Part shown: positions 212 to 11,769 of the stretch, piece after piece
How the letters are laid out: each line of letters starts with the position of its first letter
Position numbering within the stretch: the stretch's first letter is position 1
NCBI GenBank assembly: GCA_900313465.1
Contig: OMRU01000017.1
Location: 1 to 11,769 of the forward strand
Direction: 5' to 3'
From: an uncultured Clostridia bacterium
Lineage (GTDB): Bacteria; Bacillota_I; Bacilli_A; RFN20; CAG-288
Length of the DNA stretch: 11,769 bases
The notes under the pieces: model-generated
Told to the model about the DNA's origin: nothing
The model's input: the letters and a program-made list of their open reading frames with translations, nothing else
The model's database searches: none
Made by a program: the position numbers and the translations under genes

Positions 212-248
212 AAAAGAGGATATTCGCCAAGTGCGGATATCCTCTTTT
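212..248. terminator. Bidirectional intrinsic terminator between convergent genes
   Basis: A 16-bp stem (212-227 with 233-248, one T-G pair, 5-base loop CAAGT) starts AAAAGAGG and ends CCTCTTTT. It therefore gives a U tract on either strand. It begins 4 bases after the stop of the forward PlsC-like gene, and its last base overlaps the stop codon (248-250) of the reverse ligase gene. One hairpin can thus end both transcripts. Confidence 0.85.
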
Positions 249-1849
249 TAAAAGTGAATCAATGCTTTCTTATCAATCTTACCAACGCTGGTTCTGGGGA
301 ACTGAGGTAAGATAGAAATCTTTTCTGGGATAGAGTATTTGATCAAGTGTTGCTTTAAGTGGATTAACAATTCCTGCTTGAGCAATTCATCATCCTTGGA
401 ATGGTTTTCGACATACAGGTGGATATAAGGATGCTCAGGTCTAGGAACGTAGATGGCAGCGGCATCAAAGACACCCTGAATCTCATCGGCTAGTTTTTCA
501 ATATCCGCAAGATAGACATTGAAGCCGGCAATCTTGACGACATCGTTATAACGATTCTTGAAGTAGAGATAGCCATCCTTATCCACATGTCCGATATCAC
601 CAGTGCCGATATAGGTCACTCTCTTATCGGTGAAGAAAGGCTGGTTCTTCTTTGGCGTGTTGAGATAGCCAAGACAATTGGATGGACCGCTGATAAGAAT
701 CTCGCCATCCTGACCAACTGGCATTTCCTGGTGACGATCTTCGGGATTGACAATCTTGACTTTGATACCAGCTAATGGTTTACCCACGGAACCCAAGCGG
801 TGGTCGTTGATGGTGTTGACAAAGCCGACGGTGACAATCTCGGTCTGACCATATCCTTCATAGATGCGGTTTTCGGAATCATGCTTTTCCATCAGGTTGT
901 TGAATTCGCTGACTAAGGTATCGCTGATCTTGTCGGCGCCGACAAAGGTCATGTAGAGATTTTCTAAAGCACAGGAACGGAATTTCTGATTTTGCATGAG
1001 TCTATTGATCATGTAAGGAACAGCGAGTAAGAGATTTAATTGTTTCTTGTTGATGGCAGTGGCGATTTCATCGCTGTCATATTTCATCATGAGATACATG
1101 GAAGCCTCATGCATCAATGGAGCGTGAACGCCCATGGATAAACCAAAGCCATGGAAGATGGGAAGGCAAGCCAACATGGATAGACCATTAAAGTCGCGAG
1201 AAAGGATGTCATGAGCCTTGCTTCCTGCATAACGGATGGCTTTGTCATTTAATGCGACGGTCTTGATGTGACTTGTGGTTCCACCAGAACGGAGATAGAA
1301 ACTGGTCTTTAGTGGGTCAGTGTTGATTTCGATTTCGCTGACAAACTGATATTTCTTATCGACAGAGGATAACATTCTACTGTTATCGACATCGCTTAAC
1401 TGCATCATGAACTTCTTCTTGTATCCGCCTTTTTCAAATAATCCAAGGTCGATGGTGGTGCTGATGAAGTAGGTGTTGATATCGCACTGCTTGAGTTCTT
1501 CTTTGTAGTCGGAGTAACGGATATCCAAAATGATGAGGAATTCTGATTTGGTATCCTTGATGGATTCTGATAAACCTTTGACAGGAATCAAAGGGTGAAG
1601 GACAGAGACGATGGCACCAATCTTATTTAAGGCATAAAGGGTAACGATGGCTTCTGGGACATTGTAGGATAAAAGAGTGACGACAGTATCCTTGTGGATA
1701 CCGAGTCTGAAAAGATGGTCGGCCATCAAATCCACTCTGGTAAGAAGATCGACATAGCGGATTTTCTGGTTGCGAAAATAAATAGCAATTTTTTCACTAT
1801 TGCTATATTGTGCGATGTCCTGATAAAGAGTCTTGACGGATTGGTCCAT
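248..1849 (-). CDS. Class I adenylate-forming acyl/aryl-acid ligase (AMP-binding enzyme)
   Basis: This 533-residue protein has the full length and motif order of the acyl-CoA synthetase/NRPS adenylation superfamily, which activates a carboxylate as an acyl-AMP and usually passes it to a thiol (CoA or a carrier protein). Visible elements are the phosphate-binding loop SGGTTSHIKT (188-197, Lys196), YGQTE (333-337), TGD (416-418, ribose-binding Asp418), the hinge region NRYNDVVKIAG (432-442) and the C-terminal PRTSVGKIDKKAL with catalytic Lys524. The loop is unusual. SGGTT recalls EntE/DhbE-type aryl-acid ligases, but the following TGxPKG is replaced by TSHIKT, and the hinge has Asn where Gly-Arg is usual. 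No transmembrane segment or fused carrier domain is seen. The substrate cannot be told; a fatty or aryl acid is possible. The start fits because family-like sequence begins within ten residues and the next Met is at 42. It is monocistronic here. Confidence 0.85.
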   Translation of the reverse strand: MDQSVKTLYQDIAQYSNSEKIAIYFRNQKIRYVDLLTRVDLMADHLFRLGIHKDTVVTLLSYNVPEAIVTLYALNKIGAIVSVLHPLIPVKGLSESIKDTKSEFLIILDIRYSDYKEELKQCDINTYFISTTIDLGLFEKGGYKKKFMMQLSDVDNSRMLSSVDKKYQFVSEIEINTDPLKTSFYLRSGGTTSHIKTVALNDKAIRYAGSKAHDILSRDFNGLSMLACLPIFHGFGLSMGVHAPLMHEASMYLMMKYDSDEIATAINKKQLNLLLAVPYMINRLMQNQKFRSCALENLYMTFVGADKISDTLVSEFNNLMEKHDSENRIYEGYGQTEIVTVGFVNTINDHRLGSVGKPLAGIKVKIVNPEDRHQEMPVGQDGEILISGPSNCLGYLNTPKKNQPFFTDKRVTYIGTGDIGHVDKDGYLYFKNRYNDVVKIAGFNVYLADIEKLADEIQGVFDAAAIYVPRPEHPYIHLYVENHSKDDELLKQELLIHLKQHLIKYSIPEKISILPQFPRTSVGKIDKKALIHF

Positions 1850-2448: not shown

Positions 2449-3945
2449 GTGAATAGATTGTTTGATAAAGTGCCGGAAGACCTTTTCTCCCCGCTCTCCC
2501 GGAAATATAAAACCATATACGCATTCTCTCTTGTCTCTCTCTACTACATGCTGAGAGTCTACAAGACGGATATCAGAAAAACCGATTACGTTCAGTTTTT
2601 ACGTTCTCAAGGTGAAGAAATCCTTGAGTTATTTTCTGTTGAGACCGATTTGCTCGATGATAAAGGTGAAGATGAAAAAGTTGATGTTGAGACTGTTTTG
2701 AACCCTGATGATTCCTCTAGCGTTTTAAGTGTCAAGGTCAATTACATCGTCAGAAAACTAGCCAAATGTGGCTGGTACATCATCTCCAAGGATCCCAAGA
2801 CCAAGGTGGAAAATATCTATATTCCCGCCTATTCCATTCAGTTTTTGAAGCTGCTCAACGACTTGACTAGCGATGCTGGTTCTTATCTTCCTTTGGTTCA
2901 TCAGACTTATGCGGAACTCAAGATGGAAGACGAGAAGGAAGACGATTACATGTATCGTTCTCTTCTCAACGCCAAGTCCAATGCCGATGAACTGGAAATG
3001 AACGTCACCTTGCTAAGACAGCAGATTCTTGTCTTTGGCAATCGTCTGACCTATGTTCTTGATCCAAATGTTGCCTTAAAACAGCACTTTGATGAATACC
3101 GTGTCGACGTCTCGGAAAAATATTATCATCCGATGAAGACGTTTGACTCTCTTGGCCTATACGCTCAACCGACCATCGCCATTTTAAAGAAGTGGCTTGC
3201 AAGTGAACGTATCATCACCCTCTTAGTCAAGGAAGCCAAGACTGAGCCTGCTAACCGCAGCAAAGATACTGCGGAATTGACGACCTCCATCATCAAATTG
3301 ATTTCTAATGTTATCGATATCTTTGCCCGCCTTGCTTCTGCCTTTAATGAAATTGATGAGGCAAACGCCGATTATACGGAAGCGGTACAAAAGAAGGTCA
3401 ACTATCTTTCCAGTACGGATAAGACCGTCAAGGGTAAGATTGACCGCGTCATTCTTGCCTTAGCAACAGAAATCAAATCCAATCCTGCCCTTCGTTATGA
3501 AGAACTTCCAACATTGACGAAAGCGAGTGAATCTTTGTCTTTCTTCCGTCAGGGCTATCTTGATTCCTTCTCCTTGCAGATGCCATTCAAGAGAAAGACG
3601 GTGGAATTAGAAGAAGATCCACTTCCGATGGCGGATGATATCTTCCCCGATGAGGCTGTCACCTTCATGACGGATGTTCTCGATAACGAGTTGAATCGTT
3701 TCTCCGATCGTTCCATTGCTGAGTTCATGGAAAAGAACATGGACCAGAAAGATGAGATGCTTACTACTGATATCGCAGTTGGCGATACCGATGAATTGGT
3801 TCTCACCATTCTTGGTACACTCAAAGCGATGCTCGGCTTGATTCCGTTTAAGGCGGAAAAGGTTGCTGATCGTGTTGAATTTGCTGGTTTCTATATGCCT
3901 TTGTACAAGTTTACCAGGGTAAAACAAAGAAGAGGAGTTAGATAA
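2449..3945 (+). CDS. jetA: Wadjet/Mks-type SMC complex kleisin subunit, JetA-like
   Basis: This 498-residue soluble, mostly helical protein has an N-terminus (LFDKVPEDLFSPLSRKYKTIY) matching the pattern of JetA-family proteins of Bacillota Wadjet loci (the former DUF5716 group, as I recall). The layout fits a MukF/MksF-like kleisin: an N-terminal winged-helix region (about 1-140) interrupted by an acidic low-complexity insert (about 67-91), a long helical middle, and a C-terminal part ending in a small basic tail (KQRRGVR) that should contact the SMC head. Kleisins bridge the two SMC ATPase heads and bind the JetB/MksE dimer. The GTG start is supported by AGGA ten bases upstream; the nearby ATG at 2438 is out of frame and meets a stop after four codons. 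It is first of three co-oriented genes, with only two bases to the next. The assignment leans heavily on the neighbouring ATPase gene. Confidence 0.8.
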   Translation: MNRLFDKVPEDLFSPLSRKYKTIYAFSLVSLYYMLRVYKTDIRKTDYVQFLRSQGEEILELFSVETDLLDDKGEDEKVDVETVLNPDDSSSVLSVKVNYIVRKLAKCGWYIISKDPKTKVENIYIPAYSIQFLKLLNDLTSDAGSYLPLVHQTYAELKMEDEKEDDYMYRSLLNAKSNADELEMNVTLLRQQILVFGNRLTYVLDPNVALKQHFDEYRVDVSEKYYHPMKTFDSLGLYAQPTIAILKKWLASERIITLLVKEAKTEPANRSKDTAELTTSIIKLISNVIDIFARLASAFNEIDEANADYTEAVQKKVNYLSSTDKTVKGKIDRVILALATEIKSNPALRYEELPTLTKASESLSFFRQGYLDSFSLQMPFKRKTVELEEDPLPMADDIFPDEAVTFMTDVLDNELNRFSDRSIAEFMEKNMDQKDEMLTTDIAVGDTDELVLTILGTLKAMLGLIPFKAEKVADRVEFAGFYMPLYKFTRVKQRRGVR

Positions 3946-3947
3946 TT

Positions 3948-4655
3948 ATGTTTGTGGAAGAATATGAAAAAATGAGCCGCGGCGATCGCTCGCTCTTCTC
4001 TGAAACGGTCAATGACCTGTTATATCAGTGCTTTATCGTCAGAAAGAGCTATGACCGCAAGAGTCGTATGTTCAGAGCTGATCCTGGTTATATGTTTATC
4101 GAAAGATATTTCTCCGTTTTTGAGGAATATCTCTCCTATATGGATATGACCTTATCCAAGAATGATGAAGATGGTATCATCTTTGTCACTTCGGGTGCGG
4201 AAAGAAACCATTTCCGTATGGACCCAACTACCACCCTGATCGTCTTTGCCTTACGTTCCTACTATGAGGGACAGATTGAAAAGGCACCAGCTGAGACGGA
4301 GGTATTGATGACTTCTGGTCAGATGCTTACTCTCGTTCAGGAATTGGGTTTATCCAATGTTTCAAAAAGACTTTCTAGCCAGACCATCGGTTCTATCTTA
4401 CGTACCTTGGATGGCTTTAATGTTGTTTCTCGTGCCACCAATTCCTATGGTGATCCGACCTATACCTTCTTCATCATGCCTACCATTCGTTATGTCATTT
4501 CCAGTGAGAAACTCAATGCCTTATATTCTTTCTTGACCAATCCGGAAGAGGAAGAAGAAGAGACTCCTTCCTTATTTGATGCGCCTGTTCAACCAAAGAG
4601 CGCACCAAAGATGGGTGAAGATATCCCTGTTGAAGATGAGGGAGGTAACGAATAA
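3948..4655 (+). CDS. jetB: Wadjet/Mks-type winged-helix subunit, JetB/MksE-like (DUF4194-type)
   Basis: This 235-residue protein sits between the kleisin and SMC genes, the normal place of JetB/MksE. In the complex this subunit forms a winged-helix (KITE) dimer that binds the kleisin and the DNA. The body (about 1-195) shows the family pattern: an early helix with LLYQCFIVRKSYD, a middle segment around RMDPTTTLIVFALRSYYEGQ and a winged-helix end with TIGSILRTLDGFNVVSR. The last 38 residues are different: a run of six glutamates, then TPSLFDAP and an acidic, proline-rich tail that is probably disordered. AAGAGGAG lies 12 bases before the ATG, within the end of jetA. The stop overlaps the jetC start by one base (TAATG), which suggests translational coupling and matched subunit output. 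Confidence 0.8.
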   Translation: MFVEEYEKMSRGDRSLFSETVNDLLYQCFIVRKSYDRKSRMFRADPGYMFIERYFSVFEEYLSYMDMTLSKNDEDGIIFVTSGAERNHFRMDPTTTLIVFALRSYYEGQIEKAPAETEVLMTSGQMLTLVQELGLSNVSKRLSSQTIGSILRTLDGFNVVSRATNSYGDPTYTFFIMPTIRYVISSEKLNALYSFLTNPEEEEEETPSLFDAPVQPKSAPKMGEDIPVEDEGGNE

Positions 4656-7600
4656 TGAAGACGCTCCAGAAATTAAGATTGATCAACTGGCATTATTTTG
4701 CCAATGTCACTACCGATATTAAAAATATCACCTTCCTTACCGGTCCTAATGGTACTGGTAAATCCACCATCATCGATGCGTTGCAGATTATCATCTTGGG
4801 TACCACCAGACCAGATAACTTCAACAAGGCAGCCAATGAAAAAGGTCGTAGCGGTCGTAATTTGATTTCTTATCTTAGAGGTCAGACCGGTGTCAAGGAT
4901 GACGGTTCTGTTGTCAATCTCAGAAGTGGTAATCCATTTACTTCTTATATCGCCATTGAAATCTTTGATGATGTCGAACAGAAGACATTCACTGTCGGTG
5001 CCTGTTTTGATGTCGATACCAGCGATAGAATCGATAAACATTATTTCTATCTCGATTCCGGCTTCCCAGAAAATGGTTTCTCCAACTCGGATACCGAAAA
5101 GGTCAAGAGCAAGGTTCGTCCGATGATGTATCGTGAACTTGCTGCTTATGTCAGAGAAAATTACAAGGTCAACCATTTCCGTTTCTTTGATACTGATACC
5201 GATTATCAGGCTTTCATCAAAGAAGCCTTTGGTAACCTTCCGGATAAATATTTCGCCTTGTTCAAGAAGGCTGTTTCCTTTGCCCCAATCTCCAACATCT
5301 CCAGCTTCATCACCGAATATATCTGTGATGCGGATCTCAATGTCGATATCACTCCGATGCAGAAGAATATCGAACAATACAAGATCCTGGAATCCCAGGC
5401 CAAGGAATTAAAGAGCAAAGTTGAAATCTTACAAAAGATTCAGGAAACCTATACCGAACTTCGTTCCTATGACAAACGTATTGATATGCTCAATTATGTC
5501 AATGCTCGTGTCTCTTATGAAGAAAGCAAGAAAAAGATTGATGTCTTAAATGAAAGACTCAAGAAAGATAACGATCGTCTTGCTCTTATCGGCGACGAAC
5601 TTGGTCGACTTGATTCTCAGTTAGAAGATTTGAATAGCGATTTGAATTCTTATAATGCCAAACGTTTACAAAACGATAACTATTCCTTAACCGAAAAGTT
5701 ATCCATGAAAAAAGAAGGCATCATGAGACAGATCTCCTCTATCCAGATTCAGATCAACCAGGTCATCACCACCTTGACCAAATATGCTGATGCCTATGAT
5801 CGCACCTGTCAGGAATTCGTCAATTACTATCGTGATTTTGATGCCTCTAAGTTAGGTGAGGAAATCAAGGAACCATTCGAACAGTTGCTCGATTTATGCC
5901 AGGATATCTCTATCGAAGCAAAAAACATCATGCAGTCCATCGATAACAATGAGGTGGATTTCGAAAGCGTGAAGACGTTCCGCAACGACATGGATACCAT
6001 GCGTGAACAGGCCATTTCCTTACGTTCTACCTTGAACAAGGAATTCTATAACGTCTCTGGCAAACTTCAGGCCTTACAGTCTGATTTATCTGCTGTCAAC
6101 CAGGGTAAGAAGCCTTTTGATAAGCTTGGCCCTGTCTATATGAACATCAAGGAAGCCTTAGAGACTTCTTTAAAGGCCAGACACTCTGATGCCTACGTCA
6201 ACATCTATTGTGATTTGGTTGATGTCAACGATCCTGAATGGACCATGGCTCTTGAAGCCGTGTTGTTCAACCAGAAGTTCAACTTCTTTGTCAATCCACG
6301 TTATTACGAAGAAGCTAACCGTCTGTTAAAAGAATTGACCGATACATATCATTACTATCACGTCTCTTTGGTCGATACCGAACGTCTTTTGGCTAATGAG
6401 ATTGTTGCCGATGAAGGCTCTGTTGCTGAACTTGTCGATACCAAGGATAAGGGTGCAAGAGCCTATACGGATTACCTTTTAGGTCATATCAGAAAATGTT
6501 ATACCTTTGAGGAAGCCAGAGATTCCGGTTCCGGTTTGCTTTCCGATTGTACCGGTTATCGTGCCTTTGCTACCTGGTATCTAAATAAGGCCAATGCTCG
6601 TATCTTCTATCTCGGTACCCAGGTCAGCAACAATGCCAAAGCCATCTCCAGCGCCGATTATCAGGCGATGAACAAGAGATATTCCCTTATCTCGGAAGCC
6701 TTGAACAAACTTCAAAACCTGCTTACCTTGCAGGTCATGTCTGAAGCAGAATGCGAGACTTATGCTGCAGATATCGCCAAGGCCAATGATGTTGCTCCAT
6801 TACAGGCTAATATCGCCGAAGTGGAAAACGAGATGAAGTCTGTTGCCAAGGGCGATATGAGCGCTGTCGATAGCAAGATTCTTGATCTCCAGCAGAAATC
6901 CAAGGAACTCAATGCCAGAAGAAACGATCTTCTTACAGAACGCGGTCAGATCTTAGCCGATACCAATCGTATCAATGGTGAAGATTTACCAGCTGCTACC
7001 TCTGTCATGAGTGAAAATAAGAAGGCTCTTGATGCCTTTGAGGCTGATGTTGTCAATGAAGAATATGAACCATTCTTCAACAAGCTTCTTGATGAGCAGG
7101 GTCTTACCTTGGCTCAGATCAGAGTAGAAGCATATCGTGAATTTGTTCAGGCTCAGAACAAGACCAATCGCGACCGTTCTACCTTGATGAAATTGAGAAG
7201 CGATTATTGTGCTCAATATCATCTCAACTACGATTTACAGAATGAGAAATCCAACGCGGAATTCGATCGTGAACTTGAGACGATCTCCAAGGTCATGCTT
7301 CCGGATTATGAAACCAAGATTGCCAAGGCCCACGAGGATTCTATCCGTGAATTCAAGGATGACTTCATCTATAAATTGAGAACTGCTATCGAAACGGTCT
7401 ATTCTCAGATTGATGAACTCAACAAGGCTCTTAGCGATTCTCACTTCGGTAGAGACTCCTATCAGTTCAAGGTTTCTCCAAACAAGGATTATCTTGAATA
7501 TTACAACATGATCATGGATCCACTTCTCTTGAAGGCAGGCGACGCGGAAAACCTCTTCATGGAAAAATATAAGTCTACGATGGATGATTTGTTCGGTTTG

Positions 7601-8173
7601 ATTTCTTCTTCTACTTCTGCTACCGGTGAACAGCGTGAACAGGTCTTGAGAAATATTCATACCTTTACCACCTACACCACCTACATCATCTTCGACTTAC
7701 TTGTCACCAGAGGTCTTGGCGAGAACACCCAGACCATCTCTCTTGGTCGTTCCTTTACTTCCCAATCTGGTGGTGAGACGCAAACTCCTTTCTATATCTC
7801 TATCCTTGCTTCCTTTGCTCAGCTATGCCGTGTCAACAATGCCGCGGATAGCAATACGCTGAGACTTGTCATCTTTGATGAAGCGTTCTCCAAGATGGAC
7901 TCCGCTCGTATCATGAAGTCGACTGACTTGCTTCGTCAGTTTGGTCTGCAGTGTATCTTGTCTACACCTAGTGAAAAACTTCGTGACCTTGTCTCTTATG
8001 TCGACCTCATCTTGGTCACCATCCACGAAGATAAGCGCAAGCGTTCCTACATCGATGTCTACCAGGAAAAGAACAAGCGTGAAGGCAAGGTTGTGGAAGA
8101 ACCTGTCGAGAATAACGATGGCACGCAGATGCGAATCCCTGATGCTAACGCAATCTCGATAAAAGACAAATAA
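4655..8173 (+). CDS. jetC: SMC-like ATPase of a Wadjet/MksB complex, JetC-like
   Basis: This 1172-residue protein has the full SMC plan. The N-terminal head carries Walker A GPNGTGKST (30-38). A long coiled coil (about 245-480) leads to a globular hinge-like domain (about 484-655, with the phrase DPEWTMALEAVLFNQ). A returning coiled coil (about 675-960) leads to the C-terminal head with signature SGGETQTPF (from 1038) and Walker B LVIFDEAF (1071-1078, catalytic Glu1076), followed by a D-loop-like SKMDSAR. All ATPase motifs look intact, so an active DNA motor is expected. The DALQIIILG and SGGETQ signatures fit the MukB/JetC branch rather than classical SMC or Rad50. GGGAGG lies ten bases before the start and the ATG overlaps the jetB stop. 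In Wadjet, JetC dimers extrude DNA loops and JetD then cuts small circles. Here no JetD follows: a terminator begins ten bases after the stop. Confidence 0.9.
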   Translation: MKTLQKLRLINWHYFANVTTDIKNITFLTGPNGTGKSTIIDALQIIILGTTRPDNFNKAANEKGRSGRNLISYLRGQTGVKDDGSVVNLRSGNPFTSYIAIEIFDDVEQKTFTVGACFDVDTSDRIDKHYFYLDSGFPENGFSNSDTEKVKSKVRPMMYRELAAYVRENYKVNHFRFFDTDTDYQAFIKEAFGNLPDKYFALFKKAVSFAPISNISSFITEYICDADLNVDITPMQKNIEQYKILESQAKELKSKVEILQKIQETYTELRSYDKRIDMLNYVNARVSYEESKKKIDVLNERLKKDNDRLALIGDELGRLDSQLEDLNSDLNSYNAKRLQNDNYSLTEKLSMKKEGIMRQISSIQIQINQVITTLTKYADAYDRTCQEFVNYYRDFDASKLGEEIKEPFEQLLDLCQDISIEAKNIMQSIDNNEVDFESVKTFRNDMDTMREQAISLRSTLNKEFYNVSGKLQALQSDLSAVNQGKKPFDKLGPVYMNIKEALETSLKARHSDAYVNIYCDLVDVNDPEWTMALEAVLFNQKFNFFVNPRYYEEANRLLKELTDTYHYYHVSLVDTERLLANEIVADEGSVAELVDTKDKGARAYTDYLLGHIRKCYTFEEARDSGSGLLSDCTGYRAFATWYLNKANARIFYLGTQVSNNAKAISSADYQAMNKRYSLISEALNKLQNLLTLQVMSEAECETYAADIAKANDVAPLQANIAEVENEMKSVAKGDMSAVDSKILDLQQKSKELNARRNDLLTERGQILADTNRINGEDLPAATSVMSENKKALDAFEADVVNEEYEPFFNKLLDEQGLTLAQIRVEAYREFVQAQNKTNRDRSTLMKLRSDYCAQYHLNYDLQNEKSNAEFDRELETISKVMLPDYETKIAKAHEDSIREFKDDFIYKLRTAIETVYSQIDELNKALSDSHFGRDSYQFKVSPNKDYLEYYNMIMDPLLLKAGDAENLFMEKYKSTMDDLFGLISSSTSATGEQREQVLRNIHTFTTYTTYIIFDLLVTRGLGENTQTISLGRSFTSQSGGETQTPFYISILASFAQLCRVNNAADSNTLRLVIFDEAFSKMDSARIMKSTDLLRQFGLQCILSTPSEKLRDLVSYVDLILVTIHEDKRKRSYIDVYQEKNKREGKVVEEPVENNDGTQMRIPDANAISIKDK

Positions 8174-8182
8174 GATTTGATT

Positions 8183-8206
8183 AGCCGTCTTCGGACGGCT
8201 TTTCTT
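8183..8206 (+). terminator. Intrinsic terminator of the jetABC operon
   Basis: AGCCGTC (8183-8189) pairs perfectly with GACGGCT (8194-8200) around a TTCG loop closed by C-G, the exceptionally stable UUCG tetraloop. It is followed by TTTCTT. It lies ten bases after the jetC stop, so it closes the operon before any fourth gene. Confidence 0.85.
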
Positions 8207-8311
8207 AAAGAAACTTTCAACTTTGGTGGCGGTTTTTATCCCCGTAGAACAACAAACATGTAAAAGTGTTCAAAATCCCAAAAAACCTAGTAGTTTACGC
8301 ATATTTTGATA

Positions 8312-8317
8312 TATAAT
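8312..8317 (+). promoter_or_regulatory. Probable -10 element of the glgCDA operon
   Basis: This is a perfect TATAAT within the 183-base gap between jetC and glgC, 39 bases before the glgC ATG. The hexamer at normal -35 distance is poor. TTTACG at 8294-8299 would instead pair at 17 bases with TAAATA (8317-8322). A weak -35 would be compatible with an activated or regulated promoter. Apart from this, the terminator and the cre-like site, I see nothing in the gap. Confidence 0.5.
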
Positions 8318-8325
8318 AAATACGT

Positions 8326-8340
8326 TAGAAAGCGGTTACA
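8326..8340 (+). promoter_or_regulatory. Candidate cre operator (CcpA site) of the glg operon
   Basis: The 15-mer TAGAAAGCGGTTACA matches the cre consensus WTGNAANCGNWNNCW at every fixed position except the second (A for T). It begins about two bases after the start site expected from the TATAAT at 8312-8317 and ends just before the AGGAGG ribosome binding site (8344-8349). Sites in this position usually repress, by occlusion or roadblock. Catabolite control of glycogen synthesis makes biological sense, but no ccpA gene is in view. Confidence 0.5.
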
Positions 8341-8356
8341 TACAGGAGGCTTTTTT

Positions 8357-9475
8357 ATGAAGGAAGAAATGGTAGCCATGATTCTCGCCGGTGGCAGAGG
8401 CACCCGACTGAAATCACTCACGGCTAAAGTTGCAAAACCAGCAGTTTTTTTTGGTGGTAAATATCGTATTATCGATTTCCCACTCAGCAATGTTGCCAAC
8501 AGCGGCATCAATGCTGTCGGTGTGGCCACCCAATATGAATCGACCGATCTGAACAACTATATCGGCTCTGGTCGTAACTGGGGTCTTAATGGCACCAATG
8601 CCTTGGCTAGTATTTTGCCCCCAAGAGAAACACCATCCGGTGCTTCTTGGTATTTAGGTACCGCTGACGCGATTTATCAGAATATCGACTGGTTGGATAA
8701 GACACATTGCAAATATGTCGTCATCCTTTCTGGCGACCATATCTACAAGATGGATTATTCCGATATGCTCAAGTTCCATAAGGACAACAAGGCCGATGTC
8801 ACCATCGCCTGTATCAAGGTCCCAATGGCTGAAGCACCAAGATTTGGTATCGTGGTTGCCGATGAGAAGAACATGATCAACGAATTCCAGGAAAAACCAA
8901 AGGTTCCTAAGTCTGATTATGCTTCTATGGGTATCTATATCTTCACTTATGACTTATTAAGAAAAGCCTTAGTCGATGATGCCAAGGATGAAACATCCGA
9001 TCACGACTTTGGTAAGAATATTCTTCCAACCCTTCTTGGAGAAAAGAAGAGACTCTTTGCTTATCCATTCAAGGGATACTGGAAGGATGTCGGTACCGTT
9101 CAGTCCTTATGGGAAGCCAATATGGATTTATTAGATCCAAATTGTGAATTACAGCTCTTCTCTTCCCGTTTCAAAATCTATTCTGCGGATACGGCTTCTC
9201 GCCCAGAATATATCGCTCCAAGCGCGAAGGTAGAAGACTCTGTCATCAACCAGGGCGCTCAGATCTATGGCAGTGTCATTCACTCCGTCATCTGCAATGA
9301 AGCCATCATTGAACAAGGCGCAGTGGTCAAAAACTGTGTGATTCTTCCGGCTGCTGTCATCAAGACTGGCGTCAAGATTGAAAACGCCATCATCGGCGCA
9401 AAGACTGTTGTGGATAAGGATGTCATTGGTAAAGAAGATGATGTTGCCTTAGTCAACGCAACGGAAGATAAATAA
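8357..9475 (+). CDS. glgC: Glucose-1-phosphate adenylyltransferase (ADP-glucose pyrophosphorylase), catalytic subunit
   Basis: The enzyme makes ADP-glucose from ATP and glucose-1-phosphate, the committed step of glycogen synthesis. The 372 residues contain GGRGTRL (12-18, nucleotide binding), KYRIIDFPLSN (35-45), GTADAIYQN (101-109), SGDHIYKMDY (125-134, metal/catalytic Asp127), EKP (179-181) and GYWKDVGT (240-247). A C-terminal left-handed beta-helix (about 285-372) follows, with hexapeptide-like repeats such as AIIEQGAVVKNCVI. All catalytic motifs are present and the length fits the Bacillota form. I chose ATG 8357, preceded by AGGAGG seven bases upstream. An in-frame TTG at 8306 would add 17 residues but overlaps the promoter and lacks a ribosome binding site. 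glgD follows 13 bases later, and the product probably assembles with it. Confidence 0.97.
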   Translation: MKEEMVAMILAGGRGTRLKSLTAKVAKPAVFFGGKYRIIDFPLSNVANSGINAVGVATQYESTDLNNYIGSGRNWGLNGTNALASILPPRETPSGASWYLGTADAIYQNIDWLDKTHCKYVVILSGDHIYKMDYSDMLKFHKDNKADVTIACIKVPMAEAPRFGIVVADEKNMINEFQEKPKVPKSDYASMGIYIFTYDLLRKALVDDAKDETSDHDFGKNILPTLLGEKKRLFAYPFKGYWKDVGTVQSLWEANMDLLDPNCELQLFSSRFKIYSADTASRPEYIAPSAKVEDSVINQGAQIYGSVIHSVICNEAIIEQGAVVKNCVILPAAVIKTGVKIENAIIGAKTVVDKDVIGKEDDVALVNATEDK

Positions 9476-9488
9476 AAGGAGAAGGATT

Positions 9489-10607
9489 ATGGCATACAAA
9501 GTAGCTGGTATCATCGATTGCTTCGGCAATCCAGAATTTGGTCCTTTGACCCAACATAGACCTATGGCGTCTACCTCGTTCTTAGGTCGTTATTCGTTTA
9601 TCGATTTCCCTCTTTCTAACTTCCTCAACTCTGGCATTTTGAATATGGGTATTCTCTGCCAGAACCATATCCGTTCTCTTTCCAAGCATGTCGGCAATGG
9701 CCGTAGCTGGATCTCCAACACCAAACGCGGTGCTCTTGAAATCCTCTATGATGAGCCAAATGTCGCCAACCCTGCCTACAACACCGATATCGCTGATATC
9801 ATTGAAAACAAAGTTTTCTTCAAGGATGTCCATCCCGATTATGTCATCCTTGTTTCTCCTAACTTCGTCTATGAAGCTGACTTCAGCAAACTTCTTGACG
9901 AACATGTCGCCAGCGGCGATAGAATCACCCTTCTTTATACCCACGTGGAAAGCGGCTTAAAGAATCATTTCTTAGGCGCGGATAAGATCGGTATTTCTTC
10001 CCGCGGTAGAGTCAACCGCATGGAAACCAACATGGGTGATGAGGATAGCGGTGACATCTCTATGGGATGTCTCATTCTTGACTATCCAATGCTTGAATCC
10101 TTAGTGGAATATGCAAGAAGCACTTCCAGCTTCTTCAACTTGGATGACTGTCTGAAGTATCTTGCTCCAACGGTCATGATCAGAGCCGCCAAATTTGAAG
10201 GCTATGTCCGCGACTTTGATTCTTTGCCACACTACTTGGAGTATTCTTTGGAATTATTAGACCGCAAAATCTTCAATTCCCTGTTCCAGGAACACTGGCC
10301 AATTCATACCAGAACTTATGATACCGTTCCGGTTCAGTGCCGTGCTGGCTCTGATGTCACCAATTCCTATCTCGCTAATGGTAGCGTGATTGAAGGTAAG
10401 GTTACCGGTTCTATCTTAGGTAGAAATGTCCGCATCGAAAAAGATGCTGTCGTCATCAATTCCATCATCGGTAATGACGTCGTTATTTCCGAAGGTACAC
10501 ATGTTGAAAATGCCGTTATCGACCGTGACGCTCAGGTCTTACATGTCTCTGAAGTCATCGGTACTAAAGAAGAACCTATCTATATTGCTAGAGGAGATAT
10601 TGTCTAA
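9489..10607 (+). CDS. glgD: GlgD, non-catalytic regulatory partner of ADP-glucose pyrophosphorylase
   Basis: This 372-residue paralogue of GlgC keeps the fold, with LGRYSFIDFPLSN near the N-terminus and a C-terminal beta-helix (for example VIEGKVTGSILGRNVRIEKDAVV), but has lost the active site. The GGRGTRL loop is replaced by DCFGNPEFGPL (about 10-20), and SGDHIY by SPNFVY (123-128), which removes the catalytic Asp. This is the normal state of Bacillota GlgD, known from Geobacillus to raise or tune GlgC activity in a hetero-oligomer. AAGGAGAAGG lies just before the ATG. It follows glgC closely and is followed two bases later by glgA, so one transcript is expected. The equal length of 372 residues in both paralogues fits an old duplication. 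Confidence 0.95.
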   Translation: MAYKVAGIIDCFGNPEFGPLTQHRPMASTSFLGRYSFIDFPLSNFLNSGILNMGILCQNHIRSLSKHVGNGRSWISNTKRGALEILYDEPNVANPAYNTDIADIIENKVFFKDVHPDYVILVSPNFVYEADFSKLLDEHVASGDRITLLYTHVESGLKNHFLGADKIGISSRGRVNRMETNMGDEDSGDISMGCLILDYPMLESLVEYARSTSSFFNLDDCLKYLAPTVMIRAAKFEGYVRDFDSLPHYLEYSLELLDRKIFNSLFQEHWPIHTRTYDTVPVQCRAGSDVTNSYLANGSVIEGKVTGSILGRNVRIEKDAVVINSIIGNDVVISEGTHVENAVIDRDAQVLHVSEVIGTKEEPIYIARGDIV

Positions 10608-10609
10608 AT

Positions 10610-11769
10610 ATGAAAATCTTATTGGTCACAGGTGAATCTCTTCCTTACGCGAAAAGCGGTGGCTTAGGAGATTTCATCTATTCTTATGGCAAGGCTCTTG
10701 CCAAACTCGGTGAAGACGTCTCAGTCATCATGCCTTTATATTTGCCGATGAGAAGCAAATTTCCTGAAATCATGGAAGGCTTCTATGACCAGTTTGATTT
10801 TAAGATGAGCTGGAGAACCCAGGGCTGTGGTGTCTTCATGGTAGAAAGAGATGGTATCAAATTCTATTTCACCGCCATGGATCGTTTTGATCGCGACCAG
10901 CTATACGGTTATGGTGATGATACGGAAAGATTTGCCTGCTTTGTCATGGCGGTCAACACCTTCATCACGCGCCATAACGACTATGATGTTGTCCACTGCA
11001 ACGACTGGCAGACGGCGATGCTTCCTTTGCTTCTTTCCTATAATCCTAAACCAATCAAGACTGTTTTAACCATTCATAACCCCGCCTATCAGGGATGGGC
11101 TACCAGAGATGATTTAGGAACCTTCTTCAATCTGTCTACCGGATATTATGATTCGGGCTTTGTCCGTCTTGGCGATTCCTTCAACTATCTTAAGGCAGGT
11201 ATCATGTCTGCTGATAAGATCAATACGGTCTCGGTTACCCACGCTCAGGAATTATTAAGCGATCACACCGGTTTTGGTGGCATGGGTGCCATCATTGACT
11301 GGTGCAGACATTATGATTTCTCGGGTATCGTCAATGGTCTTGATACCGATATCTGGGATCCAAAGACTGATAAGCATATCGCTACAAATTATGATCTTTC
11401 TACTGTCAAAGAAGGAAAGAGAGCAAACAAGCGTGCGATTTTCAAACAGCTTGGTATGGATGAAGATTTCGATGGTCCATTATTCAGTGCAATCACTCGT
11501 CTTTCTGCCCAGAAGGGTGTAGAAAGAATCATCAGCATCATGCCTCATCTTGAGGAAAAGAACGCTAAGCTTATCGTCATCGGTACCGGTGAGATGGAAG
11601 AACAGTTCCAGGCGGAAGCCTTCAAATATAAGAACGTCTATCTAGTCAAACGTTATGATGAAGAATTTGTTAAAACTTTAGCTAATAAAATTGGTAAAAG
11701 TACTATTAACGATATTCTTTCCGATTTCAATTTAAATTATGGTACTATGGAAGTTGAAGCAATTTTAGA
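10610..11769 (+). CDS. glgA: Glycogen synthase (ADP-glucose type), 3'-incomplete with an anomalous end
   Basis: GlgA (GT5, GT-B fold) adds glucose from ADP-glucose to the growing alpha-1,4 glucan. Visible motifs are the substrate-binding KSGGLGD (15-21), HCNDWQTAMLP, HNPAYQG, the domain-linking NTVSVTHAQEL and GIVNGLDTDIWDPKTD, and the start of the C-terminal Rossmann domain SAITRLSAQKGVERI. The ATG lies two bases after the glgD stop, with GAGGAG inside the end of glgD, so translation is probably coupled. The frame stays open to the window edge (386 codons; the usual length is about 470-490). From about residue 355 the sequence no longer follows the family: after YDEEFVKTL one expects an alanine/aspartate helix and the E-P-C-G-L motif, but the text reads ANKIGKSTINDILSDF in 25% G+C DNA. 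Residues 1-354 are confidently GlgA; the rest is not. Confidence 0.93.
   Translation, partial: MKILLVTGESLPYAKSGGLGDFIYSYGKALAKLGEDVSVIMPLYLPMRSKFPEIMEGFYDQFDFKMSWRTQGCGVFMVERDGIKFYFTAMDRFDRDQLYGYGDDTERFACFVMAVNTFITRHNDYDVVHCNDWQTAMLPLLLSYNPKPIKTVLTIHNPAYQGWATRDDLGTFFNLSTGYYDSGFVRLGDSFNYLKAGIMSADKINTVSVTHAQELLSDHTGFGGMGAIIDWCRHYDFSGIVNGLDTDIWDPKTDKHIATNYDLSTVKEGKRANKRAIFKQLGMDEDFDGPLFSAITRLSAQKGVERIISIMPHLEEKNAKLIVIGTGEMEEQFQAEAFKYKNVYLVKRYDEEFVKTLANKIGKSTINDILSDFNLNYGTMEVEAIL
11672..11769 (+). other. AT-rich foreign-looking segment fused in frame to glgA
   Basis: By hand count about 28 of the last 113 bases (from 11657) are G or C, against roughly 40-45% in the preceding genes. Codons switch from GTC/ATC/ACC/TTC to ATT/AAT/ACT/TTA within a few codons. 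The translated tail, with segments such as KIGKSTINDILSDF and NYGTMEVEAIL, is stop-free and looks like real protein; its first part has a vaguely helix-turn-helix rhythm. I do not recognise the family. No direct repeat or IS end marks the joint. Confidence 0.6.

Follow-up and report, generated by a model that had tools for sequence, protein, structure and literature searches.

What does the DNA-sensing half of a plasmid-cleaving system do in a lineage of small-genome bacteria, most of them uncultured, in which no cutter is found? This question is raised by the jetABC operon on contig OMRU01000017.1, an 11,769-bp stretch of DNA from an uncultured bacterium (GTDB class Bacilli_A, order RFN20, family CAG-288) that was analyzed at its full length and is called the window here. 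The window is one whole short contig, and the view of its own flanks ends at the contig ends; the genome, 75% complete, is fragmented into 275 contigs that total 1.34 Mb. A 2023 review (PMC10586767) assigns DNA sensing and loop extrusion in Wadjet to JetABC and the cutting to JetD. We think it likely that the window holds a resident type I Wadjet-family JetABC that lacks JetD throughout the sampled lineage, is the sole detected structural maintenance of chromosomes (SMC) complex in the family, and probably organizes the chromosome. The operon and the sites on which its function depends are the following, all on the forward strand.

2449..3945, forward strand: jetA, the kleisin subunit (498 amino acids, GTG start; Pfam JetA PF18982, 196 bits with a cut-off of 26; PADLOC JetA1, 274 bits)
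3948..4655, forward strand: jetB, the KITE (tandem winged-helix) subunit (235 amino acids; Pfam DUF4194, 58 bits with a cut-off of 32.7; PADLOC JetB1, 213 bits)
4655..8173, forward strand: jetC, the SMC ATPase (1172 amino acids; PADLOC JetC1, 976 bits over residues 1-1144; AAA_29 and SbcC_Walker_B above cut-off)
4739..4768, forward strand: Walker A of JetC, residues 29-38 (G30, N32, and GKST at 35-38), in invariant alignment columns
7766..7783, forward strand: ATP-binding cassette (ABC) signature SGGETQ of JetC, residues 1038-1043 (SGGE at 1038-1041, Q1043), from the alignment
7862..7888, forward strand: Walker B of JetC, residues 1070-1078 (D1075-E1076), from the alignment
8183..8206, forward strand: intrinsic terminator, a 7-bp stem AGCCGTC-UUCG-GACGGCU followed by TTTCTT (stem-loop at 8183-8200), from sequence and RNA fold

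The layout agreed with a preliminary description of this DNA, which had reported nearly touching genes, intact ATPase motifs, and a UUCG-loop terminator ten bases past jetC. A gap of 2 nucleotides separates jetA from jetB, jetB and jetC overlap by 1 nucleotide, and the terminator stem begins ten bases after the jetC stop codon, closing the operon ahead of glgC. The fold of the terminator RNA had an energy of -14.9 kcal/mol (z score, -4.1), and none of 200 shuffled sequences was equally stable. Walker A, signature, and Walker B were intact and invariant across the 15 rows of an alignment (A1) in which identity fell to 25%. Thus, the window resembles type I Wadjet (JetABCD) in having JetA, JetB, and JetC in one operon, in the same order and nearly touching, with a JetC1 score of 976 bits. 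As a kleisin-KITE-SMC set with an intact ATPase and no nuclease, it also appears similar to MksBEF without MksG and to MukBEF; unlike these, its sequence points to JetABC, and JetC reached only 23.7 bits with the MukB Pfam model (residues 4-188), just above the cut-off of 23. JetB and JetA had no MukE or MukF Pfam match at an E value of 0.001 or lower, and the Jet models scored far higher. All four sequences matched by JetC in a search of PDB sequences were JetC. The corresponding search with JetA gave weak matches to acyl carrier proteins alone and was not used.

The missing nuclease is a property of the whole family, as far as it was sampled (23 genomes, eight of them at least 90% complete). 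A profile search found JetC in all 23 genomes, one copy in each, with the copy of G018 lying in two pieces on two contigs. JetD (JetD_C, PF09983) was detected in none of the 23 and likewise gave no match in the window's own genome (75% complete), where a jetD gene would, according to the preliminary description, have refuted its reading; among 14 control genomes, this model matched in Corynebacterium glutamicum alone. The 11,769 bp of the window likewise hold no JetD-like gene, and this absence from the operon and from the family sets it apart from type I Wadjet. ScpA (PF02616) was found in 0 of the 23 family genomes and in nine of 14 known control genomes, and Smc above the TIGR02168 cut-off was also found in 0 of the 23, with matches below that cut-off (E value of 0.001 or lower) in 19 of them. 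No other SMC complex was detected in the family by the ScpA and Smc profiles, no search having been aimed at ScpB or MukBEF. Of SMC-kleisin complexes, JetABC alone was detected in the family, where it has no nuclease and stands without Smc-ScpAB.

One strong Smc fragment, in G010 (390.8 bits; locus L025, contig G010:C55), was taken by judgment as belonging to a chimeric or foreign contig. Its open frame joins the N terminus of an ABC transporter to the C terminus of Smc on a contig of 8.2 kb; L025 is thus a probable chimeric assembly and calls for caution with Smc presence calls in such bins.

From an intact motor, a missing cutter, and the failure to find the usual condensin, we infer that chromosome folding and segregation are the most likely function of the complex. 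JetABC dimers would bind DNA and, like Wadjet, use ATP hydrolysis to extrude loops; there would be no nuclease to fire after extrusion, and the loops could then serve chromosome folding and sister separation. In many other Bacilli these tasks belong to Smc-ScpAB, and in Escherichia coli they belong to MukBEF. The complex would therefore be like Smc-ScpAB in its presumed role as the sole chromosomal SMC complex, and it is unlike Smc-ScpAB in that JetC falls outside that family (54.8 bits with SMC_prok_B; cut-off, 567) and no ScpA was found in the family. It is also conceivable that the nuclease-free complex acts on small circular DNA, silencing or trapping it through extrusion alone and leaving it uncut, and does not organize the chromosome. 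Intact ATPase motifs and the absence of JetD are compatible with such an activity, but a core function better explains why all 23 family genomes have retained the complex vertically, and we regard silencing or trapping as improbable.

The analysis also covered 196 genomes of the wider order, of which 142 have a completeness of at least 90%. Across the samples, most genomes are metagenome bins with parts missing, and those that are related do not count as independent. In the profile searches, no more than the two or three best candidates were scored in each genome (JetC throughout and, in the class, also Smc). The numbers examined per group are firm for the window's family only, since the listings omit some of the genomes that gave no match. 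Strong JetC was present in 107 of the 196 genomes (profile of alignment A1, at most three candidates scored in each). These proteins fell into two types, assigned by bit score: a high-scoring type, to which the window belongs, in 89 genomes (841 to 1474 bits for full-length copies) and a low-scoring type in 27 genomes (377 to 616 bits), with both types present in nine. Eight genomes with partial matches (G007, G010, G018, G035, G040, G059, G068, and G070) were placed with the high type by judgment. ScpA exceeded its cut-off in 0 of the 196 genomes, one subthreshold match (G044) being left uncounted, and Smc was found in 0 of the 39 genomes of the order that were part of a class-wide draw.

JetD above cut-off occurred in 16 of the 196 genomes. 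Fourteen of these genes adjoin a low-type JetC, those of G048 (with an internal stop) and G053 lie on contigs without a listed JetC, and none of the 16 shares a contig with a high-type JetC; subthreshold matches in G028, G098, G117, and G187 were not counted. The JetD genes beside low-type JetC in the same order serve as an internal positive control for the detection of JetD. Where neighborhoods were fetched, JetD was seen in 0 of 20 high-type loci (from 20 of the 89 genomes) and in 10 of 20 low-type loci (from 20 of the 27 genomes), two of the ten without JetD ending at a contig edge just past jetC. A comparison of neighborhoods and a tree containing nuclease-bearing and nuclease-less relatives had been proposed in the preliminary description, and the tree agreed with the neighborhoods: it held 82 JetC proteins, and the 33 that represent the high type in the order, including that of the window, formed one clade with no JetD inside it (Shimodaira-Hasegawa-like approximate likelihood ratio support of 100). 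Locus L154 is in neither this JetC tree nor the second one described below.

The genes on either side of the operon are the following.

248..1849, reverse strand: AMP-forming acyl-coenzyme A ligase, the upstream neighbor, found likewise upstream in several relatives
8306..11767, forward strand: glgC-glgD-glgA, with glgA cut by the contig end; these genes also adjoin jetABC in many relatives within the order

As described earlier, only a gap and the reverse-strand ligase lie upstream, and JetD lies on neither side; the 599 nucleotides between the ligase gene and jetA contain a single frame of 66 codons. Genes of the glg set occurred within a few genes past jetC in 9 of 13 family loci and in 11 of 20 other high-type loci of the order, and in none of the five loci of groups f4, f6, and f8. 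Both gene sets were compared in 15 loci from groups f1, f3, and f5; the tree of JetA, JetB, and JetC together and that of GlgC, GlgD, and GlgA shared 10 of 12 splits, compared with a mean of 0.34 and a maximum of 3 in 2000 label shuffles. Measured against one close relative (L051), the ratio of nonsynonymous to synonymous substitution rates was 0.047 for JetA and 0.059 for JetB; for JetC, over its first 232 codons, it was 0.044. The jetABC genes are a resident, vertically inherited operon under purifying selection; that the operon is resident had been argued earlier from a codon usage similar to that of the glg genes. That similarity held for jetC, whose distance to the glg genes (0.90 to 1.02) lies inside the range among the glg genes themselves (0.80 to 1.17), but less well for jetA (1.14 to 1.54) and jetB (1.17 to 1.46), which are mostly outside it. 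The GC content was 0.43 for jetABC and 0.42 to 0.45 for the glg genes. Among the matches listed, plasmid and phage relatives (12 of 16 plasmid records and two of two phage records) showed 20 to 27% identity. Unlike type I Wadjet, the window's jetABC did not show the patchiness and horizontal movement that mark defense systems.

Relatives of the window's lineage also bear on whether jetD was merely deleted recently at this one locus, or whether its absence is an assembly artifact of one metagenome bin. A genome that is 75% complete and a window that is a whole short contig leave some room for this; however, the fetched relatives of the lineage with a visible downstream side carry the same jetABC without jetD, including one on an 875-kb contig and one on a single contig of 2.08 Mb. 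Such relatives exclude a recent deletion, no copy with jetD directly after jetC was found in the window's lineage in the samples searched, and a local deletion or artifact taken as a whole is highly improbable.

The preliminary description had left two possibilities, a housekeeping loop extruder derived from a defense system and a defense complex that restricts plasmids or phages through an unlinked or novel effector. With Smc-ScpAB not found, the first is better supported. A defense complex working with an effector unrelated to JetD is unlikely in our view, though it is the strongest of the rival explanations: JetABC is otherwise known to do the sensing for a system that cleaves plasmids (PMC10586767), and the second JetC type of the order, which occurs both with and without JetD (ten of 20 loci each), makes an exchange of effectors conceivable. 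Against it, the eight loci examined from the window's genus share no gene immediately downstream of jetC, and in the window the terminator closes the operon at that point. In other genera of the order, a membrane protein of about 300 to 400 amino acids (cluster n8) follows jetC in loci L021, L045-L048, L112-L114, L118, L119, L122, and L125. It was rejected as a conserved downstream effector: a representative has no Pfam match above cut-off, and neither the window nor L041 nor L050 has the gene following jetC. The complete absence of JetD from the family genomes also speaks against defense, and presence in 23 of 23 genomes, as one clade with glg-like inheritance, is unlike a patchy defense system.

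We examined whether the same arrangement extends beyond the order with the class-wide draw of 296 genomes, 39 from the order and 257 from outside it. ScpA was above its cut-off in 134 of the 296 genomes, Smc in 134, and either of them in 137. Outside the order, 50 of the 61 genomes with strong JetC had neither Smc nor ScpA, the other 11 of the 257 genomes combined JetC with Smc-ScpAB, and 126 had Smc or ScpA without strong JetC. JetC and Smc-ScpAB were thus largely exclusive (Fisher's exact test, P = 1.7e-10, with shared ancestry ignored). JetD adjoined JetC in seven of the 11 genomes with both complexes. Among the 50 JetC-only genomes, it was found beside the best copy in G317, beside the second copy in G335, and on a contig without a listed JetC in G429. 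Single-contig genomes among these 50 include G281 and G301, the latter being strain zrk2 (CP076020.1; JetC coordinates identical). Nuclease-free jetABC was also present in six loci of an Izemoplasmatales type (L052-L054, L056, L064, and L065), in the order hrcA-grpE-dnaK-dnaJ, a PadR-like gene, jetABC, and an rsmE-like and an MtaB-like gene (names read from sequence). Several lineages of Bacilli carry a nuclease-free Wadjet core where Smc-ScpAB would be expected.

Several results weigh against a chromosomal role for this core. Neither strong JetC nor ScpA above cut-off was present in 89 of the 196 genomes of the order, and 70 of the 257 genomes outside it had no Smc, ScpA, or strong JetC. Life thus appears possible without either complex, JetABC by itself does not account for the loss of Smc, and a missing Smc-ScpAB is apparently tolerated or otherwise compensated in these lineages. 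Additionally, 11 of the 89 high-type genomes of the order, namely the nine with both JetC types together with G048 and G053, have JetD elsewhere, and this unlinked JetD could in principle serve JetABC there, a point that favors the defense alternative. Six loci of group f14 (L159-L164) have nuclease-free jetABC in genomes that keep Smc-ScpAB; therefore, loss of the nuclease does not require replacement of Smc-ScpAB.

The nuclease-free copies do not all fall together. A single clade for 47 nuclease-free chromosomal copies was rejected by the approximately unbiased test (P = 6e-6) on a tree of 67 rows, this group having been defined after the first tree was seen and excluding nuclease-free low-type rows and the Agathobacter row. 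This tree leaves out L148, L149, and L151, which had long branches, as well as 15 further rows thinned for speed, and it includes three added plasmid rows. The JetD label required eight changes on it, six of them forced by well-supported branches. Together, the lack of monophyly and the six forced changes mean that loss of the nuclease, or its gain in others, occurred more than once. This also distinguishes the window's set from MksBEF and MukBEF, as it sits in Bacilli without Smc-ScpAB, where the nuclease-free copies are not one clade. A broader scenario, to which we give an even chance, is that much of the Bacilli surrounding the mollicute lineages has lost Smc-ScpAB and relies on JetABC, which shed its nuclease on several independent occasions, as its only chromosomal condensin; the f14 genomes would be preserved intermediates. 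Such a history, in which the nuclease-free cores would descend from nuclease-bearing defense systems, would amount to a repeated conversion of a plasmid-defense motor into housekeeping machinery, parallel to what has been suggested for MukBEF.

Our literature search, which mostly did not cover subscription papers, returned no paper whose title or displayed abstract describes a lineage with JetABC, free of the nuclease, as its sole SMC complex. None appears in the accessible parts of PMC12786226, which deals with JetABCD in Bulleidia, or in those of PMC10512200, PMC10123090, PMC7203096, PMC12287153, PMC7301438, and PMC10868615. According to the 2023 review, action of a Wadjet motor on the chromosome had not yet been documented for any JetABCD system (PMC10586767); a natural JetABC without JetD offers a means of asking what this motor does to the chromosome. 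If the chromosomal role is correct, an exchange between immunity and chromosome maintenance could be read directly in living lineages, where close relatives keep both complexes, one, or neither; until now, such an exchange has been a matter of speculation about the origin of MukBEF and MksBEF. It would also mean that annotating such operons as Wadjet defense, as the matching PADLOC Jet models suggest, labels a likely core complex as immunity.

Several minor observations concern the same genes. Many genomes have neither Smc-ScpAB nor a strong JetC, and some of these are nearly complete (e.g., G026, G033, and G043). Within group f14, genomes G223, G234, and G251 carry an additional JetC with an adjoining JetD, and in G201, G234, and G243 the nuclease-free copy lies about 15 to 26 kb from smc. 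Low-type jetABC in group f5 (L142, L144, L145, and L147) shows no JetD; ahead of it, these loci share homologous open frames that exceed 1,100 amino acids and are cut by the edge of the fetched stretch, possibly a different effector; about 320 bp are visible past jetC in L145, and the JetD-bearing L146 has a long frame of a different cluster at the same place. The IFDR motif of the JetB N terminus, taken from the review (PMC10586767) and tried as a marker of JetD binding, was seen in neither JetD-bearing nor JetD-free rows and was uninformative. Upstream of jetA, positions 2078-2135 of the window contain a 29-bp unit twice, head to tail and 97% identical, and an Rfam search of the window gave no match. 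In Agathobacter rectalis (NZ_CP143948.1, a 252-kb replicon), locus L174 has jetABC followed by a gene for a gamma carbonic anhydrase with no JetD annotated, so that JetABC without an adjoining JetD occurs in a member of the Clostridia too. Finally, in L155-L157 (group f27), jetC is followed by a gene of 109 to 111 amino acids whose product reads like the cell division protein SepF and would again be a housekeeping neighbor.

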